A stretch of 46,340 nt of DNA, taken from Betaproteobacteria bacterium (lineage in GTDB: Bacteria; Pseudomonadota; Gammaproteobacteria; Burkholderiales; SG8-41). The first letter of the stretch is position 1, and every line of letters starts with the position of its first letter. The position numbers were made by a program, and so were the translations under genes. This document shows positions 796 through 44,774 of this stretch, piece by piece. Location of the stretch: the NCBI GenBank assembly GCA_947486575.1, contig CANKUB010000025.1, forward strand, positions 1 through 46,340. The letters are read 5' to 3'. The notes beneath the pieces were generated by a model. The model was not told the origin of the DNA. It was given only the letters and a program-made list of their open reading frames with translations, and searched no databases.

Positions 796-814
796 CAATA
801 AAAACAATTAGTTA
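796..814 (+). repeat. Dispersed 19-bp AT-rich element, copy 1
   Basis: CAATAAAAACAATTAGTTA fits the window consensus YAATAAAAWCAAWYRSTTA at every position. It lies between aas and the spermidine-synthase-like gene, ending 12 bp before the ATG. It differs by one base from the IHF consensus WATCAANNNNTTR. Confidence 0.75.
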
Positions 815-826
815 GGTAATTCCGGC

Positions 827-2854
827 ATGCCGCTTTACGCCGCGACTATTTTCCTGAGCGCGTTCCTGCTGTTTCTGGTGCAACCGATTATCGCCCGGCA
901 AATTCTGCCGTGGTTTGGCGGCGCGGCTTCGGTGTGGGCAGTGTGTCTGGTATTTTTCCAGAGCCTGTTGCTCGCCGGTTATGCCTATGCCGACTGGACG
1001 ACACGCCATATGTCGCCACGCACGCAGGCCAAAATTCATATCGCATTACTGGCAGCAAGTTTGCTGCTGCTGCCTATCTTGCCCGATGTGCGCTGGAAGC
1101 CTGGCGGCGAATCAGAAGCTGCGCCAGTGCTGGCGATCCTCGGTTTGTTATTCGTCACCATCGGCTTGCAGTATTTTCTGTTGTCCGCTACCAGTCCGCT
1201 GCTGCAAAGTTGGTACTGGCGGCACTTTAAACATGCGGTTCCGTACCGCTTGTTTGCATTGTCTAACTTTGCGTCGTTGCTCGCGTTGCTGGCGTATCCC
1301 TTGGCGATTGAGCCGTGGCTGCGCAGCACGGTGCAGTCTTACAGTTGGTCGACGCTCTACGTGGTGTTTGCCGCGCTGTGCGCGTTGACGGCCTGGGTAA
1401 GCGCGCGCGCAGCTGGGGATAACACTGCATCGGCCGCCGTCGCAGACGCCGAAGATGCGCCGGTGCCCGCCTTGGGTGATCGTGTATCGTGGGTTGTTTA
1501 CGCTGCGATGGGCTCGTGTTTGCTGCTCGGTGTGACCAATCACCTGACGCAGAATATCGCTTCGATTCCATTTTTGTGGCTGGCGCCGCTGGCGCTTTAT
1601 CTGGTCACGTTTATTCTGTGTTTTGATCATCCGCGCTGGTATGTGCGCCCGGTATTTATCGTGCTGATGGCGGCTGCATTGCCGACGATGGCGTGGTTCA
1701 GCGAATCGCTGGATTTGCAATTCGCAGCGCCGCTCTACGCAGTCGGGCTTTTCGTCAGTTGCATGTTCTGTCACGGCGAGTTGTACCGGGTGCGCCCGGC
1801 GCCACGTTATCTGACCACGTTTTATTTGATGATTTCCATCGGCGGCGCACTGGGCGCGTTGCTGATTGCGATTGGCGCGCCGTTGCTGCTCAAAGGTTAT
1901 TTTGAGCTGGGTATCATTCTCGCGGTGTGCGCGTTGCTGCTGTTCTGGAACGCGCTCGCACATGCACGCTGGATAGCCGTGCTGGGTTTTGTGGTGGCGA
2001 GTGTGACGACAGGTTTAGTGATCAAGAACATCACCGAGTATTCAACCGATGTGCGGGTGATGGTGCGCAATTTTTATGGCGTGGTACGCACCAAGGATTT
2101 CCCCTCGCCTGCGCCTTTCCGGGTGATGTATCACGGTGCCATCAACCACGGCGGGCAGTTGCTCGGTGCTGATGTGCGTCGCAAGCCCTCGACCTACTTC
2201 GGGCCAGGCAGCGGCTACGGACGCACCTTTGCCAGCCTGCCGCAAACCGCGCGCCGGGTGGGTGTGATCGGGCTGGGCGCGGGTGCTATTGCAGCATATG
2301 CGCGCAAGGGTGACTTGTTCCGTTTTTACGAAATTGATCCGCAAGTGGCTGCAGTGGCCATGCTGGAATTCTCTTTCCTGAAGGACAGCCCGGCGCAAAT
2401 TGAAGTGGCGCTCGGCGACGGCCGCCTGAGCCTGGAACGTGAAGCACCGCAGCGCTTTGATTTACTGGCGATCGATGCGTTTACGGGGGATTCAATTCCC
2501 ATGCACCTTCTGACGCGCGAAGCAATGGCGACCTACGTAAAGCATCTCGCGCCGGATGGCGTAATGGTGTTTCAGGCGACCAATCGCTATGTGAATATAG
2601 CGCCGGTAGTGGCGCGGCTCGCCAGCGAGTTTGGCATGAGCGCAGTGATGGTGACGGATGAGCCCGAAAACACCTACACCGCAGGCATTGATTACTGGTT
2701 GTCCTCGACGGATCAAATTATTGTCACCAGGAATCAGGCGATTCTTCAGGCGCCCGAGTTGCGCTACGCCGCCCACACGCTATCGCATGACCCGCAATTC
2801 CGTCTGTGGACAGATGATTTTTACAACTTGCTGAGTGTTTTGAAGTGGCAATAA
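827..2854 (+). CDS. Fused polytopic membrane protein/spermidine synthase-like protein
   Basis: A 675-residue protein. Roughly residues 1-430 form many hydrophobic segments, beginning MPLYAATIFLSAFLLFLVQP, typical of fused MFS/spermidine synthase proteins. Residues from about 470 carry a Rossmann methyltransferase-like aminopropyltransferase domain. GVIGLGAGAIAAYA is the nucleotide-loop equivalent, followed by FYEIDP, LGDGRL and DLLAIDAFTGDSIP, the last containing the aspartate that corresponds to the catalytic Asp of SpeE. Polyamine synthesis by these fused proteins is poorly supported in general, so the substrate is uncertain. The protein should sit in the inner membrane with the enzyme domain in the cytosol. 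It stands alone, separated from aas by the AT-rich element and from the next genes by about 500 bp of non-coding DNA. Confidence 0.88.
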   Translation: MPLYAATIFLSAFLLFLVQPIIARQILPWFGGAASVWAVCLVFFQSLLLAGYAYADWTTRHMSPRTQAKIHIALLAASLLLLPILPDVRWKPGGESEAAPVLAILGLLFVTIGLQYFLLSATSPLLQSWYWRHFKHAVPYRLFALSNFASLLALLAYPLAIEPWLRSTVQSYSWSTLYVVFAALCALTAWVSARAAGDNTASAAVADAEDAPVPALGDRVSWVVYAAMGSCLLLGVTNHLTQNIASIPFLWLAPLALYLVTFILCFDHPRWYVRPVFIVLMAAALPTMAWFSESLDLQFAAPLYAVGLFVSCMFCHGELYRVRPAPRYLTTFYLMISIGGALGALLIAIGAPLLLKGYFELGIILAVCALLLFWNALAHARWIAVLGFVVASVTTGLVIKNITEYSTDVRVMVRNFYGVVRTKDFPSPAPFRVMYHGAINHGGQLLGADVRRKPSTYFGPGSGYGRTFASLPQTARRVGVIGLGAGAIAAYARKGDLFRFYEIDPQVAAVAMLEFSFLKDSPAQIEVALGDGRLSLEREAPQRFDLLAIDAFTGDSIPMHLLTREAMATYVKHLAPDGVMVFQATNRYVNIAPVVARLASEFGMSAVMVTDEPENTYTAGIDYWLSSTDQIIVTRNQAILQAPELRYAAHTLSHDPQFRLWTDDFYNLLSVLKWQ

Positions 2855-2953
2855 ATTGCGGCATAAAAGCAAGTGCCTGATGGAATGACGTAGTTGCACT
2901 TCAGGGTTACTGCAATCCGGTCATGGCGCGATGGAGAGGCTGCCTGCGCGTGC

Positions 2954-2962
2954 TGATCCACA
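2954..2962 (+). promoter_or_regulatory. Outlying DnaA-box-like 9-mer
   Basis: TGATCCACA differs from the DnaA box TTATNCACA at one position. On its own it would mean nothing. It is listed because three further boxes lie about 100 bp downstream in the same non-coding stretch. Confidence 0.3.
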
Positions 2963-3053
2963 CCTGCGGTGATCGCTTGTCGCTGGCGCTTAAAAAATAG
3001 GCGCTTGAGCATAAATTCATACAAAACCGCGTTGCACAACCCGATTCGTAAGC

Positions 3054-3088
3054 TTGTTCACAAGGTTATCCACAGAAATTGTGAATAG
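3054..3088. promoter_or_regulatory. Cluster of three DnaA boxes
   Basis: Three 9-mers match TTATNCACA within 35 bp: TTGTTCACA at 3054-3062 (+, one mismatch), TTATCCACA at 3066-3074 (+, perfect) and CTATTCACA at 3080-3088 (-, one mismatch). The outer two also form a dyad, TTCACAA (3057-3063) with TTGTGAA (3079-3085). The DNA to the right (3085-3137) is AT-rich and holds an exact IHF consensus at 3125-3137. The flanking genes are not dnaA, dnaN or gidA, so a regulatory DnaA-binding locus is more likely than the chromosomal origin. That reading is inferred from sequence only. Confidence 0.55.
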
Positions 3089-3118
3089 TTTTCTGTTGCG
3101 CATGAAGTAATTTTAACT

Positions 3119-3137
3119 AAATTAAATCAATGTCTTA
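3119..3137 (+). promoter_or_regulatory. IHF-like site / divergent copy of the 19-bp element
   Basis: AAATTAAATCAATGTCTTA matches 15 of 19 positions of the dispersed element. Its last 13 bases are an exact match to WATCAANNNNTTR, with an AT-rich 5' flank as at known IHF sites. It lies 30 bp right of the DnaA-box cluster. Confidence 0.45.
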
Positions 3138-3300
3138 CGGTCATCAATGCAATGTGTCTTTAGCTTTGTCATTGATTCGACGCGGAATTTTCTTAACCGT
3201 TTTTTGCAGTCGTTGTCACTTGCGTGTCGTACGCGAGAGTTGGCATTAAGTCATGACGTTAATAGTTTGTTAAAACAGCATTTTCGCCTTCGATCAGAAC

Positions 3301-3328
3301 TTGTATACGTATTCGCCAATGGTAGAAT
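3301..3328 (+). promoter_or_regulatory. Putative sigma70 promoter for the small Arg-rich ORF
   Basis: TTGTAT (3301-3306) and TAGAAT (3323-3328) are separated by 16 bp. The -10 matches five of six consensus bases and the -35 matches three. The start codon of the small ORF lies 45 bp downstream. Confidence 0.35.
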
Positions 3329-3372
3329 TCCCGCCGAAGTGAACGTCGAGATAATATTGCCTGGGACAGAAC

Positions 3373-3510
3373 ATGACCGAAGAACGCAGAAATAGGGTGG
3401 GTGGTCGTCGGAAAAATGATGATCGCCGCAAAGGCCGCAGCGCCCTTTACGCCGGCCCGGAGCGCCGCGCGGTCGATCGGCGTAATGGTGTAGGCCGCCG
3501 CGCGAGCTGA
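3373..3510 (+). CDS. Small Arg-rich hypothetical protein (45 aa)
   Basis: ATG at 3373 opens a 45-codon frame ending in TGA. The product is very basic, with spaced Arg pairs: EERRNR, GGRRKNDDRRKG, GPERRAV, DRRNG and GRRAS. Such RR-repeat tracts resemble the low-complexity ERR/DRR tails seen in some proteobacterial proteins, but I recognise no family. A putative sigma70 promoter sits 45 bp upstream. The Shine-Dalgarno is weak (TGGGACAG). The regular arginine spacing and position behind a promoter favour a real gene; the short length and poor ribosome site argue against. A nucleic-acid-binding role would be a guess. Confidence 0.4.
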   Translation: MTEERRNRVGGRRKNDDRRKGRSALYAGPERRAVDRRNGVGRRAS

Positions 3511-3655
3511 CGCCGCACAAACGCTACTGCCCAATCTGTTGTTCGTTGCGTGGCGGTATCCGTGCACGCCTGCATGAATGCTAACGTTGTGCATGAGTTT
3601 TAACCTTGCGCCCGGCGCGCTACGTTCGCGCAGTTATCACCGCGATGTCGCCCAG

Positions 3656-3667
3656 CCCCCCCCCCCC
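3656..3667. repeat. C12 homopolymer tract
   Basis: Twelve consecutive C residues lie eight bases upstream of the TTGACA of the putative promoter at 3676. Such a tract is prone to slippage and to sequencing error. Confidence 0.8.
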
Positions 3668-3675
3668 GGATTTTA

Positions 3676-3704
3676 TTGACAGAAGCGGGTGCTGAACCTA
3701 GCAT
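3676..3704 (+). promoter_or_regulatory. Putative sigma70 promoter for the long catabolic gene block
   Basis: A perfect TTGACA (3676-3681), a 17 bp spacer and TAGCAT (3699-3704, four of six bases). It lies 53-74 bp upstream of the candidate starts of the first gene of the co-directional block. The C12 tract is just upstream of the -35. Confidence 0.45.
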
Positions 3705-3777
3705 CCGGTAGCCCTTCATTGCGCGCTTGGCGATGACGGGGAACCTCTGAATTCCCGTGGATGTACGATTCATCGCA

Positions 3778-4656: not shown

Positions 4657-4676
4657 AAAATCCGGGAGAGCATGTC

Positions 4677-5752: not shown

Positions 5753-5771
5753 TAATAAAAACAAATGCTTA
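5753..5771 (+). repeat. Dispersed 19-bp AT-rich element, copy 2
   Basis: TAATAAAAACAAATGCTTA fits the consensus at every position. It fills the gap between the hydrolase stop (5738) and the Bug ATG (5785), upstream of that gene's GAGGG ribosome site. Confidence 0.75.
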
Positions 5772-5784: not shown

Positions 5785-6750
5785 ATGAAAGCTGGAAAAC
5801 TTGCCGCGTGCGTATGTGTGCTGGTGTGTGGCGGTGCCGCGCAGGCGCAGGAAAAATTTCCCAGCAAGAATATTCGCATGCTGGTGCCGTTTGCGGCCGG
5901 TAGCCAGACGGATATTCTGGCGCGCTGGATCGGTGAGAAATTTCTCGAAAGCTGGGGCCAGCAGGTGGTGGTGGACAATCGACCGAGCGCGGGTGGCACC
6001 ATTGCCTCGCAATATGTGCTCGACGCCAATTTCGATGGACACACCATGATGATGGTGTCCACGGGGCATGCGGGCAATGCCACGCTCTATTCCAAGCTGC
6101 CGTACGACACCATCCGCGATTTTGCGGGCGTGTCGCAGGTGGCGAGTGTGCCGAATCTGCTGGTGGTGGCACCAACGCTGGGGCCAAAAAACGTGAAGGA
6201 GCTGATTGCATTCATGAAGGCCAAGCCGGGCACCATGAATTTCAGTTCAGCGGGTATCGGCAGTGGCACGCAAATCAACGGCGAGATGTTCAATCTGGCA
6301 GCGGGCGTCAAGGTGGCGCATGTGCCGTACAAGGGTGCGCCGGATGCGCTGAACAACGTGATCGGCGGCAACGTGCAATACAACTTCGCGCCGATATTGG
6401 TGGCAGCGGGGCAGGTCAAGGCCGGGCGTGTGCTCGCGCTGGGCGTTTCCACGGCGGCGCGTTCGCCTTTGTTTCCGAATGTGCCGACCATCGCCGAAGC
6501 GGGGCTGCCGGGCTTTGAATACGATCAATGGTACGGTTTGCTGCTTGCCGCGAAGACGCCGCGTCCCGTCGTGAACGCGGTGAATAGAGAGGTAGTGCGC
6601 ATACTTAGCACGCCGGAAATGAAGGAACGCATGCTGACGCAGGGGGCGACACCAAAGCCGACTACGCCGGAAGCATTCGACGCGTTTATTCGTGCCGAGG
6701 TGAAAAAATTTGCGCCAGTGATTATTGCTTCGGGTGCGAAGGTTAACTGA
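5785..6750 (+). CDS. Bug (TctC-like) tricarboxylate-type solute receptor 1
   Basis: A 321-residue periplasmic receptor. The signal peptide is MKAGKLAACVCVLVCGGAAQA with cleavage after AQA. The Bug fingerprint follows: FPSKNIRMLVPFAAGSQTD with ligand-loop Asp, VVVDNRPSAGGT, LPYDTIRDFAGV, KPGTMNFSSAGIGSG and HVPYKGAPDAL. Bug proteins capture carboxylates, and some capture amides or nicotinate-like acids, for TctAB transporters or for signalling. Start ATG 5785 has GAGGG at an ideal distance. The second Bug gene begins about 30 bp downstream, so the two are co-transcribed. No TctAB lies nearby; the only copy in the window is 23 kb away. Confidence 0.92.
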   Translation: MKAGKLAACVCVLVCGGAAQAQEKFPSKNIRMLVPFAAGSQTDILARWIGEKFLESWGQQVVVDNRPSAGGTIASQYVLDANFDGHTMMMVSTGHAGNATLYSKLPYDTIRDFAGVSQVASVPNLLVVAPTLGPKNVKELIAFMKAKPGTMNFSSAGIGSGTQINGEMFNLAAGVKVAHVPYKGAPDALNNVIGGNVQYNFAPILVAAGQVKAGRVLALGVSTAARSPLFPNVPTIAEAGLPGFEYDQWYGLLLAAKTPRPVVNAVNREVVRILSTPEMKERMLTQGATPKPTTPEAFDAFIRAEVKKFAPVIIASGAKVN

Positions 6751-6781
6751 CATGTGTGCCGTATTGAATGTGAGGTGTATA

Positions 6782-7738
6782 TTGAAAAAGTTGCTGTTGA
6801 TGATTTGTCTTGCGCCAGTGCTGGTGTTTGCACAGGGCACGGACCCGTACCCGAATCGCCCGATACGTATCATGGGCGGTGGTGTGGGCAGCACGGCTGA
6901 CTATCTGTCGCGCTTCATCGGCCAAAAGCTCAATGAAAAATGGGCGCAGCCGGTGGTGGTGGATAGCCGTTCCGGCGCGGGTGGCACGTTGTCTGCGGAT
7001 GTCGTGGCCAAGGCAGCCCCCGACGGTTACAACCTCGTGATGGGGCATGCCGGGCCAATGGTGAGCGCAGTAGCGCTGTATAAAGACCTGCCCTACGATC
7101 CGGTAAAGGATTTTGCACCCGTTTCACGCATGACCACCGGCGTGGTGGTGCTGGTGACGCATCCGTCGATACCAGTTAGCAATACAAAGGAATTGATTGC
7201 CTATCTCAAGCAGAAAAGTGGTTTGAGTTACGCCTCGGCGGGTAATGGTTCGATGAGCCATCTTGCGGGCGAATTGTTTAACCGCATTGCAGGTGTCAAT
7301 GTGCTGCACGTGCCGTACAAAAGCGCGGGCTTTGCGCTAACGGCGCTGTTATCATCCGAAACTCAGATTTCGTTTTTGTCGCCCGTGACGGCGCACACGC
7401 AACTGAAAGCGGGCCGCGTGAAGGCGCTGGCGGTATCGAGCAAAACACGCTTTGCGGGCACGCCAGAAATACCGAGTGCGGTGGAAGCCGGCATACCGGG
7501 TATGGATGCACAACTGTGGTTCGGTTTGTTCACCACCGCTAAAACGCCACGTGTGGTGGTTATGAAATTGAATCAACAGATCACCGAAGTGTTGAACCGG
7601 CCCGACGTAAAAGCAATGTTGCTTGCGCAAGGTGCAGAGGCAGCGCCCTCGACACCGGAGGAGCTTGGCGATTTTGTGAAGAGCGAGCTTCTGCGCTGGG
7701 TGCCGATTATCAAGGCCGCAGGAATTAAAGCAGGCTGA
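6782..7738 (+). CDS. Bug (TctC-like) solute receptor 2
   Basis: A periplasmic receptor of about 318 residues. A TTG start at 6782 is preferred because it gives a compact signal peptide, (M)KKLLLMICLAPVLVFAQ, and has GAGGTG just upstream. ATG 6752 would add ten residues before the basic region and lies 1 bp after the previous stop. Bug features are YPNRPIRIMGGGVGSTADYL, VVVDSRSGAGGTL, LPYDPVKDFAPV, SYASAGNGSMSHLAGE and HVPYKSAG. GGGVGSTAD departs from the usual PFxxGGxxD in the first ligand loop, suggesting a distinct ligand. The gene is paired with receptor 1 and precedes the M24 gene by 43 bp. Confidence 0.88.
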   Translation: MKKLLLMICLAPVLVFAQGTDPYPNRPIRIMGGGVGSTADYLSRFIGQKLNEKWAQPVVVDSRSGAGGTLSADVVAKAAPDGYNLVMGHAGPMVSAVALYKDLPYDPVKDFAPVSRMTTGVVVLVTHPSIPVSNTKELIAYLKQKSGLSYASAGNGSMSHLAGELFNRIAGVNVLHVPYKSAGFALTALLSSETQISFLSPVTAHTQLKAGRVKALAVSSKTRFAGTPEIPSAVEAGIPGMDAQLWFGLFTTAKTPRVVVMKLNQQITEVLNRPDVKAMLLAQGAEAAPSTPEELGDFVKSELLRWVPIIKAAGIKAG

Positions 7739-7751: not shown

Positions 7752-7770
7752 TAAGTGTTTGTTTTTATTG
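7752..7770 (-). repeat. Dispersed 19-bp AT-rich element, copy 3 (inverted)
   Basis: On the minus strand this reads CAATAAAAACAAACACTTA, within one base of consensus. It occupies the gap between Bug 2 and the M24 gene and overlaps that gene's TGAGGA ribosome site. Confidence 0.7.
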
Positions 7771-11128: not shown

Positions 11129-12781
11129 ATGTGTCGTAAGTATTTGTTTTTATTAATATTATTATTAACCTTGGATGTGCAGGCTGTAGACACGATTTTA
11201 GTCAACGGCAAGATCGTCACGGTTGATGATCGCTTCACCATCACGCAAGCGTTGGCGATCAAAAGTCAGCGCGTGGTTGCGACGGGCAGCAATGCGGAAA
11301 TACGCAAACTGGCAATAGCCGATACCAGGGTGATCGATCTCAAAGGCCGCACAGTAATACCCGGGCTCATCGACAATCACTCGCACTGGATACGCGCCGC
11401 CGAGCATGATGAGTTGCGCTTTGATGGCGTGACCTCTCGTGCGCAAGCCGTGCAAATGTTGACATTGCGTGTGCGCAGCGCAAAGGTGGGTGAGTGGGTG
11501 AGTGTGCTGGGCGGCTGGTCGGAAGAGCAATTCACCGATGATCCGCGTGGCTTTTCCCTGGCTGAACTCGACAAGCTTGCGCCCGATACACCGTTGGCGG
11601 TGCAATCGATCTACAACCACACCTATCTCAACACGGCAGGCTTGCGCGCTGCAAAAATCGACGAGAGTTCGCCCAATCCTCCCGGTGGCACGATTGAAAA
11701 AGACGCCAGTGGAAAACTCACTGGTGTCGTGCGCGGTGCAGGCGGCGTAGCTTTTGTTGCGGAGAGAGTGCCCAAGCTCGAAGCGGCAGCGCGCATGGCC
11801 AATGTTCGCAAGTTGGCCACTTATCTGAATTCAATGGGGATCACCGCGTGGGGCGATGCCGGCGGGCGCGGCATGGCGGCGGGGCACTACGCGCCGTATC
11901 GTGAGCTGGCCGACAAAGGCGAGCTTACCGTGCGCGTATTCTGGACCACCATTCGTCAGCCTTCCACTCCAGAGCAGGTGGATCAGGTGCTCGCCGAAGT
12001 GGCAACGGTCAAGCCGTTTCAGGGCAATGACACCATGGATCATATCGGTTGGGGGGAGTCGGTCTATTCGCCGATAACTACGCAGTTGTTGCGCGCCCAA
12101 AAGGAAGTCAATCCGAACGGCATCAGGCAAATGCAGCGTATTGCGGGCGCACTCGCGCAGCGCGGCGTGTATCTTAATTCCCATGTTGAAATGAACGGGC
12201 CGATTGAGCAATTTGTTACGGCCTACGAAGAACTCAACAAAACCACGCCGATCAAAGGCCTGCGCTGGTCGTTCTCTCATCTCGATCAGATTGATGAGCA
12301 GCAGTTGCAACGCATGAAGCGCCTTGGTATGACCGCGCAAATTCATAGCCGTCCGCTGATTCAGGGCGTACTGATGCACAAGGTGCATGGTGACGCCGCA
12401 TGGGATATGCCACCATTTCGTCGCGTGCAGGACAGTGGCATCGTGTGGGGCCTGGGCTCCGACGCGACGGCGGTGACGACATCCAACCCATTTTACACAT
12501 TGGGGTTTGCAGTGACTGGCAAAATGGTTGGCGGGCACCACGTCAATCGTCAGAGCATCACGCGCGAAGAAGCGCTGATTGCGCATACGCGCAGCAATGC
12601 CTTTATCCTGTTTCAGGAAGGTAATCTGGGTTCGCTGCAAAAGGGCAAGTACGCTGATCTGCTGGTATTGGATCGGGACTACCTGACGGTGTCAGCAGAT
12701 GCCATCAAGGATTTGAAGCCGATGATGACGATGATTGGCGGTAAAGTAGTTTATGAGAGCATGAGCGAGGCGAAGAAATAG
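11129..12781 (+). CDS. Exported amidohydrolase (YtcJ/amidohydrolase 3 family)
   Basis: A 550-residue metal-dependent hydrolase. The leader MCRKYLFLLILLLTLDVQA is a plausible signal peptide, so the protein may act in the periplasm. The small beta domain begins DTILVNGKIVTVDD, followed by IPGLIDNHSHW with the HxH metal motif (His84, His86), further His in LNSHVEMNG and FSHLDQ, and Asp in WGLGSDATAVTT. The C-terminus, YADLLVLDRDYLTV, is typical of the family. ATG 11129 has AAGGAG upstream. The first codons are supplied by an inverted copy of the AT-rich element. The gene sits between E1beta (13 bp) and E2 (1 bp gap), an odd place for an exported hydrolase. The substrate is unknown; amide or cyclic amide hydrolysis is usual. 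Confidence 0.87.
   Translation: MCRKYLFLLILLLTLDVQAVDTILVNGKIVTVDDRFTITQALAIKSQRVVATGSNAEIRKLAIADTRVIDLKGRTVIPGLIDNHSHWIRAAEHDELRFDGVTSRAQAVQMLTLRVRSAKVGEWVSVLGGWSEEQFTDDPRGFSLAELDKLAPDTPLAVQSIYNHTYLNTAGLRAAKIDESSPNPPGGTIEKDASGKLTGVVRGAGGVAFVAERVPKLEAAARMANVRKLATYLNSMGITAWGDAGGRGMAAGHYAPYRELADKGELTVRVFWTTIRQPSTPEQVDQVLAEVATVKPFQGNDTMDHIGWGESVYSPITTQLLRAQKEVNPNGIRQMQRIAGALAQRGVYLNSHVEMNGPIEQFVTAYEELNKTTPIKGLRWSFSHLDQIDEQQLQRMKRLGMTAQIHSRPLIQGVLMHKVHGDAAWDMPPFRRVQDSGIVWGLGSDATAVTTSNPFYTLGFAVTGKMVGGHHVNRQSITREEALIAHTRSNAFILFQEGNLGSLQKGKYADLLVLDRDYLTVSADAIKDLKPMMTMIGGKVVYESMSEAKK
11137..11155 (-). repeat. Dispersed 19-bp AT-rich element, copy 4 (inverted, inside coding start)
   Basis: The minus strand reads TAATAAAAACAAATACTTA, an exact fit to consensus. 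It covers codons 3-9 of the amidohydrolase, so the element encodes part of the signal peptide (RKYLFLL). Confidence 0.75.
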
Positions 12782-17092: not shown

Positions 17093-17111
17093 CAATAAAA
17101 ACAAATAGTTA
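17093..17111 (+). repeat. Dispersed 19-bp AT-rich element, copy 5
   Basis: CAATAAAAACAAATAGTTA fits the consensus exactly. It begins directly after the RidA stop and ends at the A of the upstream duplicated ATG before the aldo/keto reductase. Confidence 0.75.
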
Positions 17112-18131: not shown

Positions 18132-19280
18132 ATGGCAAAAGCTAAAAAAGAAATTGGCAAAAAAAAGGACGTCGAACTCACCCGCGACGCCAGCCGTGAA
18201 GATCACTCGCGCCCGTTCAATACGCTGCAAGAGATGGTGATGCATGCGCGGCAGAATCTGTCGCGCTTTCAGTGGGATACTTTATGTGGGGGCTCGGATT
18301 CCGAAACCACGCTGCGGCGCAATCGCATGGCGCTCGATTGCTTGGCGCTGCGTCAGCGCGTGCTGGTGGATGTATCCAGGATCGACATGACAACCACGCT
18401 GCTCGGTGAAAAGTTGAAGCTGCCGGTGTTTATTGCGCCCGTGGGTAATTTTTTGCAGATTGCCGATCCCGCTGGCGCGGTGGCGGTAGCACGGGGCGCG
18501 ATCGCGGCAGGCACCACGGCATTTATCAGCACGGCGGCCAAGCCCAGTATTGAGGAGGTCGCTAAAAGCGTTGATCACCCGCTGCTGTTTCAATTGTATG
18601 TGCGCAGTGATCGCGCCTGGATGCGCGGCTTTCTGGATCGCGCCAAGGCTTCAGGTTACCGCGCGATTTGCGTGACCGTGGATCGCGCATATTACAGTCG
18701 GCGCGAGCGCGACATCATCAATGGTTACTTGCAGCGTGCCGATTCTGGTGATCCGCGCCATCAGGCCAGTCTCACCTGGGACGATGCAGTATGGATCAAG
18801 CAGCACACCAAGTTGCCGTTGATACTCAAGGGCATTGCGACAGCCGAAGATGCCAAACTCGCCGTGGAGCATGGTGCGGATGTGGTGTATGTGTCGAATC
18901 ACGGTGGTCGTCAATTGGATCACGGTCTGGGAACAATCGAAACGCTGCCGGAAATTGTAGATGCGGTGAATGGCAAAGCTGAAGTGTTGTGGGACGGCGG
19001 GGTCACGCGTGGCACTGACGTGGTCAAGGCCATTGCACTGGGCGCGCGCGCAGTGGGCGTGGGCAAGTTGCAAGGGTGGGCGTTGGCGGCAGCGGGCGAG
19101 CAGGGAATCGTGCGCATGTTTGAGCTGCTGGCGCAGGAAATACACACCACGCTGGGGCTGATGGGGGTGAAATCGCTGAAGGAATTGAACCCGTCGTGGG
19201 TGCGACCGGCCCTGCATACCGGCAAGTTTGGTACTACCAGCAATTATCCGGTGTTCGATGAGATGTTTAAAAATAACTAA
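18132..19280 (+). CDS. FMN-dependent alpha-hydroxy-acid oxidizing protein
   Basis: A 382-residue flavoprotein of the lactate/glycolate/mandelate oxidase family. After a Lys-rich head (AKAKKEIGKKK) the barrel begins. Lys233 (LILKGIA), His257 and Arg260 (VSNHGGRQLD) form the expected catalytic set, and WDGGVTRGTDVVKAIALGARAVGVGK is the FMN phosphate region. The usual APTAM loop is replaced by APVGNFLQIADPAGA. It would oxidise a 2-hydroxy acid to a 2-oxo acid, which could feed the E1/E2 complex encoded upstream; that link is inference. Its TAA stop is the first base triplet of element copy 6. Confidence 0.87.
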   Translation: MAKAKKEIGKKKDVELTRDASREDHSRPFNTLQEMVMHARQNLSRFQWDTLCGGSDSETTLRRNRMALDCLALRQRVLVDVSRIDMTTTLLGEKLKLPVFIAPVGNFLQIADPAGAVAVARGAIAAGTTAFISTAAKPSIEEVAKSVDHPLLFQLYVRSDRAWMRGFLDRAKASGYRAICVTVDRAYYSRRERDIINGYLQRADSGDPRHQASLTWDDAVWIKQHTKLPLILKGIATAEDAKLAVEHGADVVYVSNHGGRQLDHGLGTIETLPEIVDAVNGKAEVLWDGGVTRGTDVVKAIALGARAVGVGKLQGWALAAAGEQGIVRMFELLAQEIHTTLGLMGVKSLKELNPSWVRPALHTGKFGTTSNYPVFDEMFKNN

Positions 19281-19296
19281 TAAAAACAATTGGTTA
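19278..19296 (+). repeat. Dispersed 19-bp AT-rich element, copy 6
   Basis: TAATAAAAACAATTGGTTA fits the consensus exactly. Its first three bases are the stop codon of the alpha-hydroxyacid oxidase. It runs into TATAAT at 19295-19300, so it could also carry a -10 box for the deacetylase gene. Confidence 0.75.
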
Positions 19297-20695: not shown

Positions 20696-21685
20696 TTACT
20701 CCATACGCATGCCTGTGGCTTTCACCGTTTTTTCGTTAGCACGAAACTGCTGGCGCAGATATTCTTCGTATTGTCCGGCATTCAGATAGGCGTTGACCAG
20801 TCCGGCCCTGGTCAGGCCTGATTTCACTTCGGGCGTGTCCAGCGCACGTGCGAACTCCGCACTCAGGCGGTCAATAGAGGATTTGGGTGCCCCCACGCGC
20901 GTGACGGCGCCAAACCAGTTAGTCGCTTCGTAACCGGGGTAACCCGATTCGTGCACGGTGGGCACGTCTTTCATCACGTCGCTGCGCGTGAGCGAGGTAA
21001 CAGCGATGGCGCGCAGCCGTCCGGCTGCGACATAGGGTGCTGCCTCGGATACGTTGCCGAAGTTGATGGTGGTGTGTCCGCCCATCACCGCGATGGTTGC
21101 AGGCCCGCCACCCTGGTAGGGCACGTTAACGATATCAATTTTCGACAACAGCTTGAATTGCTCCGCTGCCAGACGCTGAAAACCCGTGGGGCTGGCTGTG
21201 GCGTAGGTCAATTCGCCAGGTTTGGTTTTTGCCAGCGTGACCAGTTCCTTCATGCTGCGCGCGGGAAGCGACGGATGCACTGAAAACAGCAACGGGTTGG
21301 CCGCAAGTCGCGCGATGCCCGCGAAGTCGCGTTCAGTGTCGTACGGCAGCTTACGTGCGAATAAATTAATGGTGTAGCTCGGCCCCATCAGCAGGATCAC
21401 ATGCGCGTCGGCTGGCGCGCGCGCAACCAGCTCAGTGGCAATTACCGTACCGCCGCCAGGGCGGTCTTCAACCACGATCTGCTGGCCCAGCACCTTACCC
21501 ATCGATGGCGCAAGCAGGCGTCCGATGATATCGATTGTGCCACCAGCAGCGAAAGGTACGACGAAACGGATTTGCCTGGACGGAAAGGGCGGGGCTGAAC
21601 CTGACGCAGGAGCCTGTGCGTTTGCAGAAGCTGCCAACACCATCGCTCCGAATGTGCTAATGGATCGTAAGTATTTGTTTTTCAT
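20696..21685 (-). CDS. Bug (TctC-like) solute receptor 3
   Basis: A 329-residue receptor with signal peptide MKNKYLRSISTFGAMVLAASANAQA. Signature segments are FPSRQIRFVVPFAAGGTIDI, IVVEDRPGGGT, LPYDTERDFAGI, KPGELTYATASPTG, NVPYQGGGPATI and LRAIAVTSLTRSD. The first six codons are encoded by an element copy that includes the start codon. It is the downstream member of a minus-strand pair with receptor 4, 95 bp apart. Ligand unknown. Confidence 0.92.
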   Translation of the reverse strand: MKNKYLRSISTFGAMVLAASANAQAPASGSAPPFPSRQIRFVVPFAAGGTIDIIGRLLAPSMGKVLGQQIVVEDRPGGGTVIATELVARAPADAHVILLMGPSYTINLFARKLPYDTERDFAGIARLAANPLLFSVHPSLPARSMKELVTLAKTKPGELTYATASPTGFQRLAAEQFKLLSKIDIVNVPYQGGGPATIAVMGGHTTINFGNVSEAAPYVAAGRLRAIAVTSLTRSDVMKDVPTVHESGYPGYEATNWFGAVTRVGAPKSSIDRLSAEFARALDTPEVKSGLTRAGLVNAYLNAGQYEEYLRQQFRANEKTVKATGMRME

Positions 21686-21686
21686 G
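21668..21686 (-). repeat. Dispersed 19-bp AT-rich element, copy 7 (spans a start codon)
   Basis: The minus strand reads CATGAAAAACAAATACTTA, with two mismatches to consensus. The ATG is the start of Bug receptor 3, so the element supplies MKNKYL. Confidence 0.65.
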
Positions 21687-21780: not shown

Positions 21781-22752
21781 CTACTGCACCTTGATGCCGC
21801 GTTCCTTCACGACTTTGGTCCAGCGTTCGTATTCACCGCGAATGCGTTCGTTAAATTTGGCGGGGGTGCCGCCGGTGGCCATCATGCCTTGCTGCTCTAG
21901 ATTTTTCTTCATTTCGGGATCTTGCAGAATCTTGTTGATGGCGCCATTCAGCGCATCGACTATCGGCTGCGGCGTATTGCGCGGCGCCATGGCACCGAAC
22001 CAAAGCTCAACCGCATAACCGGGGAGCGTGTCGCCAACCGTGGGCACGTCGGGCAGCGCGTACCAGCGTTTTTCCGTGGTGACTGCAAGCGCGCGCAGCT
22101 TGCCGGTGGCTACATGCGGCACTATCGGCAACAGGCTGCCCACGATGATGGGTGCTTGCCCAGCCAGCAGATCAGTCATTGCGCCGCCAGTGCTTCGATA
22201 ATGCACGCCTACCATTCGCGTGCCGGTCATGCTGAGTATGAGTTCAGTGGCCATGTGCGTCAGGCCGCCCAATCCGCTGGTGCCATAAGTCAGATCACCG
22301 GGCTTGGCTTTGGCCAGTGCAATGAGTTCTTTGGTAGATTTCACCGGCATCGATGGGTGTACGGTCAGCACAAATGGCGTAATGCCAAACTCGGCAACGC
22401 CCGGCAACGAATTGACCGGATCAAACGCAGGCCTGTGCGTCGCGGCCGAGGCCGAGAAGCTGCCTGACACCATCAGTATCGTGTAGCCATCAGCAGGCGA
22501 TTTTGCGGCTATTTCCATGCCGACAATACCACCGGCTCCCGCGCGGTTTTCGACGATGAACTGCTGCTTGAATATTTCAGAGAGCTTGGCCGAAACCTGG
22601 CGTGCGGTGATGTCACTGCCGCCGCCGGGGGCGAATGGCACCATCACGCGCACCGGCTTGGTGGGATACGCTTGCGCGGCGGCGAGCGCCGGGCAGAGTG
22701 CAGCGAGTACTGCGCCGCAGGTGGTCAATCGCTTCAGGGTGGTGGATGTCAT
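21781..22752 (-). CDS. Bug (TctC-like) solute receptor 4
   Basis: A 323-residue receptor. Translation from ATG 22752 is supported by GAGGAG seven bases upstream and gives signal peptide MTSTTLKRLTTCGAVLAALCPALAAAQA. It shows YPTKPVRVMVPFAPGGGSDI, FIVENRAGAGGI, KPGDLTYGTSGLGGLTHMATE, GVHYRSTGGAMTDLL and RALAVTTEKRW. GVHYRST replaces the common HVPYKG, so its pocket probably differs from the others. It lies upstream of receptor 3 and downstream of the MaoC-like pair, all on the minus strand, so the four genes may be co-expressed. Confidence 0.92.
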   Translation of the reverse strand: MTSTTLKRLTTCGAVLAALCPALAAAQAYPTKPVRVMVPFAPGGGSDITARQVSAKLSEIFKQQFIVENRAGAGGIVGMEIAAKSPADGYTILMVSGSFSASAATHRPAFDPVNSLPGVAEFGITPFVLTVHPSMPVKSTKELIALAKAKPGDLTYGTSGLGGLTHMATELILSMTGTRMVGVHYRSTGGAMTDLLAGQAPIIVGSLLPIVPHVATGKLRALAVTTEKRWYALPDVPTVGDTLPGYAVELWFGAMAPRNTPQPIVDALNGAINKILQDPEMKKNLEQQGMMATGGTPAKFNERIRGEYERWTKVVKERGIKVQ

Positions 22753-23909: not shown

Positions 23910-24911
23910 ATGAAGACTGCAATCACTGAAATGTTCTGCGGGGTGATTTTCGCTGCATCCGAGGTTGTGCTGATGTCTGGCAGCGCAGCGCTGGCGCAGG
24001 AACGAACGGCGGGAGCGACGAGCTATCCGCTTCGTCCCATCCGCATTATCGTTACGGTAGCGCCGGGGGCTGGCGCTGACGCGATTGCGCGCGCCGCAGG
24101 GCAGATATTGAACGAGCGTTTGGGCCAAACCGCGGTGGTGGATAACCGACCCGGCGGTTCCGGCGTCATCGGTTCCGAACTGGTTGCCAGAGCACCGCCT
24201 GATGGCTACACGATATTGAGTTACGCGGATGGACTGATGTTGCTCAGTGCGACCAAACGCGTGCCGTTCGACGTGCGCACAACATTTGATCCCATCGTCA
24301 ATATGACGGCTCAACCGTACATTCTTATCGTGGGCTTGAATTTGCCTGCCAAAAATATCAAGGAGCTGGTTGCCTACTCAGCCACGCAAACGCTGACGTA
24401 TGGCAGTTCCGGCGTGGGGGGCACGGTGCATCTGGGCATGGAACAACTGGCGATGCTCACTGGCGGCAAATTCATGCACGTGCCGTACAAGGGCACAGCG
24501 CCTTCCATTGTGGGCGTGATGGGCGGCGAGATACATATGGTTGCCGGCAGCGCAATTGCTGCGAGCAGCGCAATCAAGACGGGCAAGGTGCGCGGGCTGG
24601 CGGTGATGGGATTGACGCGCGTACCATCAATGCCGGATTTGCCGACTGTCGCCGAACAAGGTTGGCCCGGCTACAAGCTCACCAATCGCTATGGCCTCTT
24701 TGCACCGGCCGGTACACCCCGTGCGATTCTTGCTACGCTCAACCGCGTGGTCAGCGATGGTATGCATTCGCCACAGATGGCGCAACGGCTCGCGGCGGAG
24801 GGCGCGCAACCCGGTGAGCGCAAAACGCCTGCTGAATTAAAGACAGAATTTGCGCGCGAATATGTGGAGACGGAGCAACTGGTGAAGCGGCTCAACGTCA
24901 AGCTTAACTAA
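23910..24911 (+). CDS. Bug (TctC-like) solute receptor 5
   Basis: A 333-residue receptor from ATG 23910, which has AAGGA six bases upstream; the in-frame 5' extension lacks a leader and is rejected. The leader runs MKTAITEMFCGVIF to SAALAQ. It shows YPLRPIRIIVTVAPGAGADAI (VAPGAGAD rather than VPFxxGGxxD), AVVDNRPGGSGVIGSE, GSSGVGGTVHLGMEQL, HVPYKGTAPSIV and KVRGLAVMGLTR. It closely resembles receptor 6 along its whole length, including SSGVGGTVHLGME, PYIL and TNRY, so they are recent duplicates. Its TAA falls inside element copy 8. Confidence 0.92.
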   Translation: MKTAITEMFCGVIFAASEVVLMSGSAALAQERTAGATSYPLRPIRIIVTVAPGAGADAIARAAGQILNERLGQTAVVDNRPGGSGVIGSELVARAPPDGYTILSYADGLMLLSATKRVPFDVRTTFDPIVNMTAQPYILIVGLNLPAKNIKELVAYSATQTLTYGSSGVGGTVHLGMEQLAMLTGGKFMHVPYKGTAPSIVGVMGGEIHMVAGSAIAASSAIKTGKVRGLAVMGLTRVPSMPDLPTVAEQGWPGYKLTNRYGLFAPAGTPRAILATLNRVVSDGMHSPQMAQRLAAEGAQPGERKTPAELKTEFAREYVETEQLVKRLNVKLN

Positions 24912-24923
24912 TTGATTTTATTG
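24905..24923 (-). repeat. Dispersed 19-bp AT-rich element, copy 8 (convergent junction)
   Basis: The minus strand reads CAATAAAATCAATTAGTTA, a perfect consensus fit that contains an exact IHF consensus. It covers the stop of Bug 5 and nearly fills the 18 bp gap to the convergent Fe-ADH gene. Confidence 0.75.
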
Positions 24924-33166: not shown

Positions 33167-33185
33167 TAAGTTATTGTTTTATATA
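33167..33185 (-). repeat. Degenerate copy of the 19-bp AT-rich element
   Basis: The minus strand reads TATATAAAACAATAACTTA, matching 15 of 19 consensus positions. It lies between Bug 8 and the EamA gene, again at a gene junction. Confidence 0.45.
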
Positions 33186-34791: not shown

Positions 34792-35169
34792 TGTCGTGCT
34801 CCTGTGCGGTTAGTTCTGATTTTCAAACTTGCTGGTTTTTAATGTAGCGCAGTGGGGCCAGCCAGCGCAACTATTTGTGGACTGCACAGCAGATTCGTGC
34901 AGCAACCTTGCATCAAGTATCTTATTGATTTTATAGAACTATTTTTAATGTGCTCCGCAACGTGGAAGGTCTCGAAAAAATGAACCGTATCCGAATTGCA
35001 GCGCCATGAGCCTGTGCTATTCTTTGGTTTCGTTTTCCCGCTGACACGTGATGCAGGTGAACAGCGCCCATCGCCACTAGAGGGGAAGCCCCTGCACTTG
35101 TTAGATGTTGCAGATTGAGTAGCACCGATTTTCCCATCCCCCGATTCAATTCACTTCAAGGAGCCCACC
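34792..35169. other. Non-coding divergent region between YccU-like and HMGL-like genes
   Basis: No ORF is supported. The stretch holds an imperfect relative of the AT-rich element with an internal insertion (about 34914-34936). A clear ribosome site AAGGAG precedes the HMGL-like ATG. Candidate -10 boxes are weak and I do not call a promoter. Confidence 0.5.
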
Positions 35170-39884: not shown

Positions 39885-40862
39885 TCAGTCAGCTTTGATG
39901 TTCGCCGCTCTAATGACTTCGCCGAAGCGTATGGTATCTGCTCTGAGAAGTGCGGCGAACTGCTCCGGCGTGGTACTGAAAGGCATCATCCCCAGACTGG
40001 ACAGACTCTCGATGGTATCGGGCATGGCCAGGATTTTGGTGATCTCAATCGCTAACTTGTCGATGATCGATTTGGGTGTGGCGAGCGGCGCAAGGATTCC
40101 GTGCCACGATTTTACGTGGAAGTCTGTCAGACCAGACTCTGCAAAGGTGGGTACATTGGGCAGCGCGCGCATGCGCCGTTCTCCGGTGACGGCAATGGCC
40201 TTGAGTTTGCCGCCTTGCACGTAAGGTACGATACTGCTGGGGCTGTTGAAAAACATCTGCACCTGGCCCGCCATCAGATCGATGACAGCCGGCCCCCCCC
40301 CTTTGTAGGGCACGTGCTGCATTTTGATGCCGGTACGCATGGCGAGCATTTCTGCAGACAGGTGATTGCCGCTGCCCTTGGCCGATGAGGCGTAATTGAG
40401 TTGACCCGGTTTAGCTTTCGCCAATGCGATGAATTCCTTCAGGGTGTTGGCCGGCAGGGCGGGATGAACCACCAGCACGTAATCGCTGCTATCGATGGTG
40501 GTTACCGCAGCGAAGTCGTTGACCGCGTCGTACGGTGTGGGCATCAGTAAGGGTGTAATGATATGGGTGCTGGATGTTGCCATGATGGTGTAGCCATCAG
40601 GCGGTGACTTGAGCAAGATCGTGGAGCCAATGATGGTACTCGCGCCGGCGCGATTGTCCATGATCGTCAGTACACCGAGCGTATCGGTCAATTTTTTACC
40701 GACAATCCGTCCCAGAATGTCGTTACTTGCGCCAGGTGGGAATGGGATGATGATGCGGATAGGCTTGCTGGGATAAGCCTGCTGCGCAGCGCCGGGACCC
40801 GCCAGTGTGATCAGTAAACCAAGGGTCAACAGTTGCAAAGCAGTCACAGGTGTTTTCATCAT
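39885..40862 (-). CDS. Bug (TctC-like) solute receptor 11
   Basis: A 325-residue receptor, first of the tandem array, starting at ATG 40862 (ATGATG) with GGAGAAG upstream. Leader MMKTPVTALQLLTLGLLITL ends GAAQ. It shows YPSKPIRIIIPFPPGASNDI, TIMDNRAGASTIIGST, LNYASSAKGSGNHLSAE, HVPYKGGGPAVIDLMAGQVQ and KLKAIAVTGERRM. A nine-base C run (40293-40301) encodes its GGG and could slip. Upstream lie about 200 bp with AT-rich element copy 9 and the stop of the MOP transporter. Confidence 0.92.
   Translation of the reverse strand: MMKTPVTALQLLTLGLLITLAGPGAAQQAYPSKPIRIIIPFPPGASNDILGRIVGKKLTDTLGVLTIMDNRAGASTIIGSTILLKSPPDGYTIMATSSTHIITPLLMPTPYDAVNDFAAVTTIDSSDYVLVVHPALPANTLKEFIALAKAKPGQLNYASSAKGSGNHLSAEMLAMRTGIKMQHVPYKGGGPAVIDLMAGQVQMFFNSPSSIVPYVQGGKLKAIAVTGERRMRALPNVPTFAESGLTDFHVKSWHGILAPLATPKSIIDKLAIEITKILAMPDTIESLSSLGMMPFSTTPEQFAALLRADTIRFGEVIRAANIKAD
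40293..40301. repeat. C9 tract in Bug receptor 11
   Basis: Nine C residues on the plus strand encode the GGG of KGGGPAV on the minus strand. Paralogues encode the same residues with interrupted codons, so the run is not forced by the protein. Confidence 0.75.
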
Positions 40863-41031: not shown

Positions 41032-41050
41032 CAATAAAATCAATTACTTA
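41032..41050 (+). repeat. Dispersed 19-bp AT-rich element, copy 9
   Basis: CAATAAAATCAATTACTTA fits the consensus exactly and contains an exact IHF consensus. It lies between Bug 11 and the stop of the MOP transporter gene. Confidence 0.75.
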
Positions 41051-41064
41051 TATAAATTATGATG

Positions 41065-42378: not shown

Positions 42379-42610
42379 GAATTTCCGGCAGGTTCTAGCG
42401 ACACGGGTTGGACGTGGATAGCGATACTTCGCAGTTCATGCATGATATTACGGGTTCTTATAATGGACTTGCAATAGATGCCATCGAATCTAACAGCATA
42501 GCGCACCAGCCACGATCAAGAAAGTGTGTTGTAGTGGCGCGCAGGCTGCGCGGGATTTGTTATGCTGCTCGTGCTAGTGGCGATCAATAACTATTCAACG
42601 GAGGAGAGCC

Positions 42611-44194
42611 ATGCAACAGCGTTCCCTGATAAAGCCGGTGGTGATGGCTTTTATACTTTTACTATCGATGCAGGCGTTGGCGCAAAAGGCGGGTGGCGTA
42701 TTGCGGCGTGCGAACGACGAAAACCCGCCCAGCGCTTCTTTGCATGAAGAAGGTTCAAACATCGTCACCACACCGTTTGTGCCGGTGTTCAATAATCTGG
42801 TCACCTTTGATTCCACCAAGAGCATCAGCAAGCCCGATGCGCTGGTGCCCGATCTCGCAACGAGCTGGTCGTGGAGCGCTGATAACAAGACACTGACCTT
42901 CAAGCTGCGCCGTGGCGTGAAATGGCATGATGGAAAACCGTTTTCAGCGGCAGACGTCAAATGCACGTGGGATACCGTAAGCGGCAAGCGGGACGGAGGT
43001 TGGCGCAAGAGTCCGCGCAAAGCGTGGTATGCAAACCTGCAGGAAATTGTCGTCGATGCGGACGATCAGGTGAGCTTCAAGCTGGGGCGACCGCAGCCGT
43101 CATTTTTAGGTTTTTTTGCGGCGGGCTGGTCAGTGGTGTATCCCTGTCATATCGATGGCAGACAGATGCGGCAGAAGCCAATTGGTACCGGCCCGTTCAT
43201 GGTGAGCTCCTTTGAGCCAGGCAAGATGATTCGTCTGGTGAAAAACCCCAATTACTTCAAACCGGGGCGGCCTTATCTCGACGGGATTGATATGCCGATC
43301 ATTTCGTCACCCAGTACCCGCAATCTGGCCTTCGTCGCCGGTGATACCGATATTTACACACCGAGCGCGACGCTATTGGCCGAAGTCAAGGCGAAGCGTG
43401 CCGATGCCATTTGCGAGGTGGGATTGAGTTATGCCTACACGCAACTGATCATCAATCGTACTGTGGCGCCATTCAACGACGTGCGCGTGCGGCGCGCGAT
43501 GGCGCTGGCGGTAGACCGCGAGGCAGTCATTAAGGTCAAGGGAGCAGGGCTGGACCGGCTGGGAGGCGAATTGATGCCGCCGCCGGAAGGTGCCTGGGGA
43601 CTGGATAAGGCAGAACTTGCGGCGATTCCTGGCTACGGCGCAGACATTGAGAAGCGACGCGAAGAGGCACGCAAGCTGATGCGCGAGGCGGGCTACGGCC
43701 CGGACAAGCCGCTGAATCTGGTACTCAGTACGCGTGATGTGGCGCGCTACCGCGACACCTCAGTATTGATCCTCGATCATCTTGCCAAAATCTATGTCAA
43801 GGGTGAGATGAAAACCATAGACACGGCGATCTGGACCAATATGGTTGCCAAGCGTAACTACACTGTAGCCGTGCGCTCGCGCGGGCAGGCAATTGATGAT
43901 CCCGACGTGTCATTCTACGAAAGTTTTTCATGTACTTCGCTGAGTAACGTGGATGGTTATTGCAACAAGGATATGGAGGCGCTGTTCGAAAAACAGTCAG
44001 CCATGGTCGATCAGAATGAGCGCAAGAAACTAGTCAAGGAGATCGACAGGCAAATGCAGATGGATGTGGTGCGACCGACAATTACGTTCGCTGCTCTTCC
44101 GTATTGCCGTCGCCCCTACGTAAAAGGCTATGTGCCGAGCCTGAACAACCAATATAGCAACCTTCGCATGGAAGACGTGTGGCTCGACAAATAG
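42611..44194 (+). CDS. ABC transporter substrate-binding protein, family 5
   Basis: A 527-residue exported SBP of the dipeptide/oligopeptide/nickel family. Leader MQQRSLIKPVVMAFILLLSM ends ALAQ; GGAGGAG precedes the ATG. Family features are VPDLATSWSWSADNKTLTFKL, RRGVKWHDGKPFSAADVK, GTGPFMVSSFEPG, LVKNPNYFKPGRPYLDGI and FNDVRVRRAMALAVDRE. The usual permease (DppB/DppC) and ATPase genes are absent, so it is an orphan receptor. A TATAAT box at 42459-42464 lies about 145 bp upstream. The next gene is on the opposite strand. Confidence 0.92.
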   Translation: MQQRSLIKPVVMAFILLLSMQALAQKAGGVLRRANDENPPSASLHEEGSNIVTTPFVPVFNNLVTFDSTKSISKPDALVPDLATSWSWSADNKTLTFKLRRGVKWHDGKPFSAADVKCTWDTVSGKRDGGWRKSPRKAWYANLQEIVVDADDQVSFKLGRPQPSFLGFFAAGWSVVYPCHIDGRQMRQKPIGTGPFMVSSFEPGKMIRLVKNPNYFKPGRPYLDGIDMPIISSPSTRNLAFVAGDTDIYTPSATLLAEVKAKRADAICEVGLSYAYTQLIINRTVAPFNDVRVRRAMALAVDREAVIKVKGAGLDRLGGELMPPPEGAWGLDKAELAAIPGYGADIEKRREEARKLMREAGYGPDKPLNLVLSTRDVARYRDTSVLILDHLAKIYVKGEMKTIDTAIWTNMVAKRNYTVAVRSRGQAIDDPDVSFYESFSCTSLSNVDGYCNKDMEALFEKQSAMVDQNERKKLVKEIDRQMQMDVVRPTITFAALPYCRRPYVKGYVPSLNNQYSNLRMEDVWLDK

Positions 44195-44273
44195 GCCCCT
44201 TGTCTCAGGTCTTGCCGGCGTGGGTTCTGCATACACGCCTGATTGGTGCTATCGATATTTGTGTGCCCGTGGA

Positions 44274-44747
44274 TTACCCCGGTGGGTGATCCTGCCGCCA
44301 CGCCCAGGTAATCACCCATTCATTGCCTTCGCCTTCGATGCACACGGCGGTGCCATTGCCAGGCTTGAACTCGACCACTTTGCAGGCCTCGTTGCCGCAC
44401 ACCAGCTGCGAGGCTGTGCGCAGCAGATAATCCACGTGACCGCACATCATAATGTCGCCGCCTGCTGCGGCGATTTCCGCCAGGAACGGCGCCAGCGGAT
44501 CGCCCGTGTTAACGGGATAGGCGGCCTTCACCGCCTTGCTTTGCATGCCCAGCCCCGCCGCAATACGCTGCGCAGTTTCAAGACTCCATTGTAATTCGCT
44601 GTGCAGCAGGCGCACGGGTGCGACGCCCAGTGCCTTGAAGCGCGCAGCCAGTCGTTCGCATTCGCGCTGGCCTTGCGGACTCAGGTGGCGCTGTGGGTCT
44701 TGGGCTGGCGTCAGCACGTCAGCGTGGTGCACCAGATATACTTTCAT
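44274..44747 (-). CDS. SixA-like histidine phosphatase family protein with degenerate active site
   Basis: A 157-residue protein of the histidine phosphatase (SixA-like) family. It begins MKVYLVHHADVL: His8 is the phosphorylated His position, but the preceding Arg of the RHG motif is His7 and the Gly is Ala9. The second conserved Arg (SPxxRAxQTA) is replaced by Trp54 in SELQWSLETA. The later catalytic-region His104 (MCGHVDYLL) remains. LSPQGQRECERLAARF is a normal family helix. Two phosphate-binding arginines are thus lost, so phosphatase activity is doubtful; it may bind a ligand. It is downstream of the aldolase on the same strand, with element copy 10 between. Confidence 0.8.
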   Translation of the reverse strand: MKVYLVHHADVLTPAQDPQRHLSPQGQRECERLAARFKALGVAPVRLLHSELQWSLETAQRIAAGLGMQSKAVKAAYPVNTGDPLAPFLAEIAAAGGDIMMCGHVDYLLRTASQLVCGNEACKVVEFKPGNGTAVCIEGEGNEWVITWAWRQDHPPG

Positions 44748-44755
44748 CGTTTATT

Positions 44756-44774
44756 TAAGTATTTGGTTTTAAAG
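44756..44774 (-). repeat. Dispersed 19-bp AT-rich element, copy 10 (degenerate)
   Basis: The minus strand reads CTTTAAAACCAAATACTTA: the 3' half CAAATACTTA matches and the 5' half has drifted. It lies between the aldolase stop and the SixA-like ATG. Confidence 0.55.

Follow-up and report, generated by a model that had tools for sequence, protein, structure and literature searches.

The window analysed here is the whole 46,340-nt stretch of contig CANKUB010000025.1 (assembly GCA_947486575.1) from a bacterium under Burkholderiales whose genome is denoted G000. The window carries a dispersed element that the initial annotation described as a 19-bp repeat and as a possible site of integration host factor (IHF) type. 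The elements are very probably strong IHF sites, as predicted from their IHF-site layout and from a scan of phage lambda. We also lean, with moderate confidence, towards a wider explanation in which a genome-wide array of IHF sites is kept by selection for an architectural role. The sequence, number, conservation, even spacing and lineage restriction of the sites are observed; their binding by IHF and the function are inferred. Each element would be a strong full-length site (about 35 bp) for the cell's own IHF, carrying an A-tract in its left arm and AWCAANNNNTTA in its right arm. The sites would have arisen via point substitution, mainly in gene spacers, in a Burkholderiales group in which no HU gene was found. 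Selection would then keep sharp, fixed bends arrayed over the whole genome (one per about 4 kb in G000), with pairs within about 2 kb disfavoured. Bound IHF would pin the tips of supercoiled loops, structuring the nucleoid and partly replacing HU.

The recurrence of the element is beyond chance, as had been proposed. The pattern YAATAAAAWCAAWYRSTTA has 11 matches in the window at up to three mismatches compared with 0.07 expected, and the maximum in 100 shuffles is one. The same pattern has 709 matches in the whole genome (5.35 Mb, up to two mismatches) compared with three for the backwards pattern. A 33-column matrix built from the aligned elements yields 207 sites (score at least 18) in 846 kb, or 245 per Mb, compared with five in the reversed sequence. 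Extrapolation gives about 1,300 sites per genome, probably more than 1,000, or about one per 4 kb. The window contains 13 sites with a matrix score of at least 17.8, and 30 order-1 Markov sequences score no higher than 13.5. The weak window sites are not certain because the reversed window yields one match at 22.7.

The repeat is real, but the motif extends beyond the 19 bp first described. The alignment of 55 matches from 446 kb exhibits a motif of about 35 bp with a left A-tract and AWCAANNNNTTA on the right. The aligned copies are A-rich from -7 to -1 (the A-tract lies at about -7 to -2), have T at position 0, continue with a 19-mer near CAATAAAAACAAATAGTTA and end in a weak A/T-rich tail. 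No conserved flank was found beyond the motif within 50 bp on either side of these 55 copies. At least five A/T among the six A-tract positions are found in 113 of 115 copies. The strict form WATCAANNNNTTR is fitted by 13 of the 115 copies, and allowing either A or T at its third position, as in [AT]A[AT]CAANNNNTT[AG], raises the number to 94. The pattern AAAWWWN9AWCAANNNNTTR, which leaves nine free letters between the A-tract and the core, still has 404 genome matches compared with eight for the control, which makes the 19-mer a single subtype within a broader family.

IHF sites have been described as 35 bp long, with the consensus WATCARNNNNTTR in the right half and, for most of the strongest ones, a left-hand A-tract (PMC8421141). 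The A-tract of the aligned copies lies at the IHF spacing; the initial annotation had noted the A-rich 5' half as an IHF trait. Phage lambda was scanned with matrices made solely from these elements (96,920 windows). The best match of the 33-column matrix lies near pL and is one letter off the element pattern. The second falls within the cos region, and ranks four and five are in attP and near pL, respectively. Three IHF zones (pL, cosB, and attP) therefore hold four of the top five matches. The pL and attP positions, including H2 and H', are those we take to be correct. The I1 site of cosB is an IHF site (PMC4856287). None of 500 column-shuffled matrices reaches four zone matches, 13 reach three, and 15 place both top matches in the zones. 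With the A-tract and core columns alone, the attP cores H2 and H' rank 1 and 2 of 96,920, and H1 ranks 136.

The source genome encodes IhfA beside pheT and IhfB beside rpsA (L160 and L161; neighbours named by eye). Both proteins score above the NCBIfam equivalog cut-offs, and their PDB relatives are 1ihf A and B. The IhfA and IhfB arms are nearly identical across nine family genomes, both site-rich and siteless, and altered IHF specificity was rejected as the cause of the sites on this ground. The IHF-type idea of the initial annotation is thus supported by the motif layout, the lambda scan, the conserved IhfA and IhfB, and the lineage restriction described below. A site of another nucleoid protein or of a xenogeneic silencer that merely resembles an IHF site is rather improbable. 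It would suit the preference for A at position 9, the 13 strict WATCAANNNNTTR copies and the low ranks of the attP cores with the full matrix. However, conservation falls on the positions of an IHF site, and the same A, noted initially as an A for T at the third position, is present in the two best lambda matches (pL and cosB).

Genes were called by a simple custom script, and their starts are approximate. The 121 sites (score at least 16) in 446 kb comprise 84 in junctions, 35 inside called genes and two at stretch ends. Among the 207 matrix sites in 846 kb, 38 are centred at least 30 bp inside a called gene. The claim that the element occurs only at gene boundaries therefore holds for most copies but not for these, and the window copies at 11137 and 21668 lie in first codons. 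The favoured spot is the tandem spacer of 40-60 bp, which is occupied in 16 of 30 cases in the 446 kb and in 25 of 58 in the 846-kb set. None of the 54 overlapping tandem gene pairs in the 446 kb carries a site. The number of sites per kb is 2.7 at tandem, 1.13 at convergent and 0.88 at divergent junctions, and this lowest density at divergent junctions is counted in favour of an architectural role. Occupancy per junction (gap of at least 15 bp) is alike at convergent and tandem junctions (0.33 and 0.34). Elements also sit between adjacent same-strand genes of core operons, such as atpB-atpE.

IHF sites could instead act locally at gene ends, on read-through, mRNA 3' ends or supercoiling between neighbours, in the manner of RIB/BIME; we regard this as unlikely, though worth weighing. 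The short spacers near stops are consistent with it (among 61 tandem sites, 40 are closer to the stop and 19 closer to the start), as is a slight gene-strand preference at the tandem junctions of G000, where 73 elements run along the gene strand and 50 against it. Known IHF-binding repeats are placed "at the 3' end of transcription units" by a title cited in PMC2817692. However, a local role does not predict the mutual avoidance over 2 kb described below, and it is opposed by the equal occupancy of convergent and tandem junctions, the elements inside core operons and the lack of conservation in the flanking sequence. An RNA function is disfavoured by the same 73 to 50 strand split.

The spacing of the sites was compared with a null in which sites were permuted between junctions matched for type and gap class (2000 permutations). 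The spacing of junction sites in G000 has a coefficient of variation (CV) of 0.67 compared with 0.90 in the null, and gaps below 1.5 kb make up 8.9% compared with 21.4%; no permutation of the 2000 is as low in either measure. The CV in G062, which belongs to another genus (500 kb of one contig), is 0.62 compared with 0.91 (P 0.0005), and gaps below 1.5 kb are absent compared with 10.5% in the null (P 0.0015). In G000, the pair correlation rises from 0.29 at 0-1 kb to 0.57 at 1-2 kb and stays near 1 at longer distances. The corresponding values are 0, 0.16, and 0.32 over 0-3 kb in G062 (P 0.12 and 0.006 for the first two bins) and 0.48 and 0.59 in G001 (P 0.19 and 0.04). The over-even spacing is clear in two genera, and the sites avoid one another within about 2 kb. 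Deletion between close direct repeats is not supported as the cause of this avoidance in G000, where the pairs closer than 2 kb comprise 24 in the same and 14 in opposite orientation. No alternation in the orientation of successive sites was seen (same/different 108/89, 27/32, and 26/25). An architectural role fits better than local regulation because the even spacing runs over tandem and convergent junctions, operon interiors included. In published simulations, plectoneme apices are pinned by IHF, which can also partition topological domains (PMC9519438).

The atpB-atpE spacer is readable at 24 of 29 loci (all except G015, G017, G020, G022, and G026). The element is present there in 11 of 13 genus members and in G018 (g6), in a single orientation. 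No element within three mismatches was found at this spacer in G004 and G009, G014 has an IHF-like sequence seen by eye only, and the element is absent from the spacers of G033, G016, G024, G019, G025, G030, G062, G031, and G021. Six of these last nine spacers are 36-45 bp long, which matches the element-bearing spacers (36-55 bp), and three are longer. The sites thus appear to arise by substitution and not by insertion. The initial annotation had also offered a small mobile or duplicated junction repeat, which now seems highly improbable. The copies are dispersed in hundreds, chiefly between genes, as such a repeat would be. However, their flanks share nothing beyond the site, most element-free atpB-atpE spacers are equally long, the positions are conserved between species, and the nine letters between the A-tract and the core vary freely.

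Among 29 orthologous junctions compared between G000 and named relatives, 25 have the element in neither genome, four have it in both in the same orientation, and none is discordant. The all-loci comparison kept 54 of 62 junction pairs (eight from the same assembly or with at least 96% identity were dropped) and gives 43 neither, 10 both and one discordant, a partly ascertained count. The named loci were selected for an exact copy, so the bias-free parts are the G000 side of the 29 junctions and the unascertained genome pairs. These pairs give 10 neither and two both for G000-G012, 12 and one for G001-G012, and four and none for G062-G001. The pair G000-G001 gives five neither and two discordant at 44% mean identity, perhaps paralogues. 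The cross-genus pair G000-G062 gives 41 neither, three both, eight in G000 only and one in G062 only. Sites are therefore retained among related species, with turnover from genus to genus.

The site-bearing Burkholderiales group is known chiefly from metagenomes. We counted the 19-mer at one mismatch in 74 family genomes, the source included, where 38 genomes have at least 14 copies and 34 have none or one. The 38 genomes comprise 13 of 14 in g1, all 21 in g7, the only one in g6 and all three in g8, and the two intermediate genomes G009 and G014 have 10 and nine copies. One of the 34 genomes with none or one, G093, has 11 generic sites compared with none in the control. The element was also found, among the matches listed, in assemblies titled Bordetella parapertussis (L054-L056, L058, L079, and others), which may be misnamed members of the group.

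HU-type genes were recognised by an ad hoc criterion, a PF00216 match spanning profile positions 1-90 as in eight HU genes beside lon. Among the matches listed (to about 1e-26), such a gene occurs in 21 of the 34 site-poor genomes and in none of the other 40, a count in which related genomes are not independent. The two PF00216 matches of G000 are IhfA and IhfB. The HU search covered 22 lon loci, and hupB lies beside lon in G060, G033, G022, G085, G028, G015, G023, and G017, all siteless, and at none of the other 14. The contig reaches ppiD at eight of these 14 loci, five in site-rich genomes (G020, G019, G025, G010, and G006) and three in siteless ones (G024, G016, and G021); it does not reach ppiD in G000, G001, G003, G009, G014, and G018, and the G000 sequence extends 146 bp past lon. 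In the five site-rich genomes, the stretch from lon to ppiD has no hupB. The site-rich group seems to have lost HU, and within the family the sites are abundant only in genera without an HU gene found.

The Lon tree (22 rows, eight of 19 inner branches well supported) places G014 inside the HU-bearing g2 at 88/83, which is below the mark for good support. This genome has 25 sites compared with one in the control (generic sites 15 and 0), and if the placement is right it may represent an independent loss of HU accompanied by a slight increase in sites. Outside the family, G415 stands out most among 399 genomes of the order, with 167 generic sites compared with two, apparently a second, independent expansion of IHF-type sites. 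The four sites of G415 seen in 100 kb all have T at position 9. Three more genomes, G443 (70 compared with 6), G228 (53 and 8), and G160 (28 and 13), also belong to another family and have an HU-type gene, as does G415. Within the family, HU loss therefore correlates with site abundance, but it is not a rule. HU loss as a sufficient or general cause is ruled out by g4, which is HU-less and siteless, and by G415 with its HU-type gene and many sites.

The copies could also be DNA uptake sequences favoured through uptake and recombination by competent cells, a reading that we find improbable. To our knowledge, known uptake sequences do not resemble IHF sites. The high copy number, both orientations, lineage restriction and fairly even spacing are shared with the uptake sequences of Pasteurellaceae and Neisseriaceae (PMC7811141). 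A ComEC match was found in 25 of 27 genomes examined, and the site-poor genus member G009 is without one. However, the motif has the layout of an IHF site and selects IHF zones in lambda, the site-rich G062 (91% complete) has no ComEC match, and ComEC is present in all seven siteless family genomes examined. G009 also has an additional IhfB-like gene.

The elements can be compared with known systems. They are similar to the IHF sites at lambda pL, cosB I1 and attP in their left A-tract, right core and length of about 35 bp. They differ in their extrapolated count of about 1,300 copies per genome, their location mostly in spacers, their over-even and conserved arrangement and the A at position 9. 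Around 300 consensus IHF sites have been described for E. coli (PMC8421141). RIB/BIME-1 of enterobacteria are likewise high-copy intergenic IHF-binding repeats, with RIBs placed at transcription-unit 3' ends (PMC2817692), but the elements here are over-evenly spaced and without conserved flanks, so no REP palindromes surround them. The Correia (NEMIS) elements of Neisseria are dispersed, contain an IHF site and are almost exclusively intergenic in their 155-bp form (PMC2229807). However, they are mobile-type elements of 105-155 bp, whereas only the IHF footprint is common here. No fixed-length insert of the Correia or MITE type with terminal inverted repeats was found in the 55-copy flanks or the atpB-atpE spacers.

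Several points weigh against an architectural array of IHF sites. The binding of IHF to the elements is itself a prediction, and the even spacing and high copy number are shared with DNA uptake sequences. At position 9, 84% of copies carry A instead of the T of the E. coli consensus. The lambda zones that hold four of the top five matches were defined after the first scan's matches were known, the attP match is offset from the H2 core by about 9 bp, and the third match, at about 23,070, lies in no IHF zone that we recognised. The full matrix ranks the attP cores 25 (H2), 410 (H'), and 2107 (H1). The spacing is less clear in G001, where the CV gives P 0.21 while gaps below 1.5 kb are 9.3% compared with 24.8% (P 0.008), and in G012 (21 sites), where the P values are 0.48 and 0.08. 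The link with HU is weakened by G024 and G016 (g4; L202 and L204), which are siteless, lack hupB at lon and have only two DNABII matches. G021 (g9; L206) is also siteless without hupB at lon and has four DNABII matches, one of unseen form. G009, of the same genus as the source, has 28 copies compared with nine in the control and no HU-type gene. The site-rich G063 and G078 (g7) have a third DNABII match of unseen form, and the HU-type gene of G415 is among seven DNABII matches.

IHF is usually discussed for the local bends that it makes at several hundred sites. If more than 1,000 strong, conserved and mutually avoiding IHF sites are truly present, they would offer a natural test of a bacterial chromosome fold set by sequence, and how HU and IHF share their work can be tested by comparison with relatives in the family that carry HU. 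We tentatively propose that IHF in this apparently HU-less lineage could be a site-anchored chromosome organiser, in which a selected, even grid of programmed bends would fix loop folding and the architecture would be written in the DNA. Among the open-access papers listed by our searches, we recognised no account of IHF sites as evenly spaced repeats or of HU loss with IHF kept.

The window sites are as follows. All nine copies initially listed as good were recovered, eight of them with no mismatch. On the forward strand, the copies without mismatch are at 796-814 (the 19-mer core, matrix window 787-819; score 36.9), 5753-5771 in a 46-bp spacer (34.2), 17093-17111 (37.0), 19278-19296 overlapping the stop codon of the upstream frame (37.4), and 41032-41050 (38.0). 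On the reverse strand, they are at 7752-7770 (29.9), 11137-11155 (38.3), and 24905-24923 in a convergent junction (34.6). The translations place the copy at 11137 inside the first codons of the frame starting at 11129, and the ninth copy, at 21668-21686 (reverse strand, two mismatches, 34.1), contains the start codon and first codons of its frame. The weaker copies fared unevenly. Those at 3119-3137 (forward, 18.4), 33167-33185 (reverse, 18.2), and 44756-44774 (reverse, three mismatches, 17.8) are uncertain sites, whereas 46247 is no site (4.8). A site that the initial annotation did not list was found at 34918-34936 (reverse, three mismatches, 25.4).

The elements in 11129-11260 and 21551-21685 also encode putative signal-peptide starts, seen by eye (MCRKYLFLLILLL... 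and MKNKYLRSIS...). Tricarboxylate-type receptors of the TctC family (PF03401) account for four of the 10 window proteins scanned (5785-7738, 21781-22752, and 39885-40862), and related DNA repeats recur across the window.

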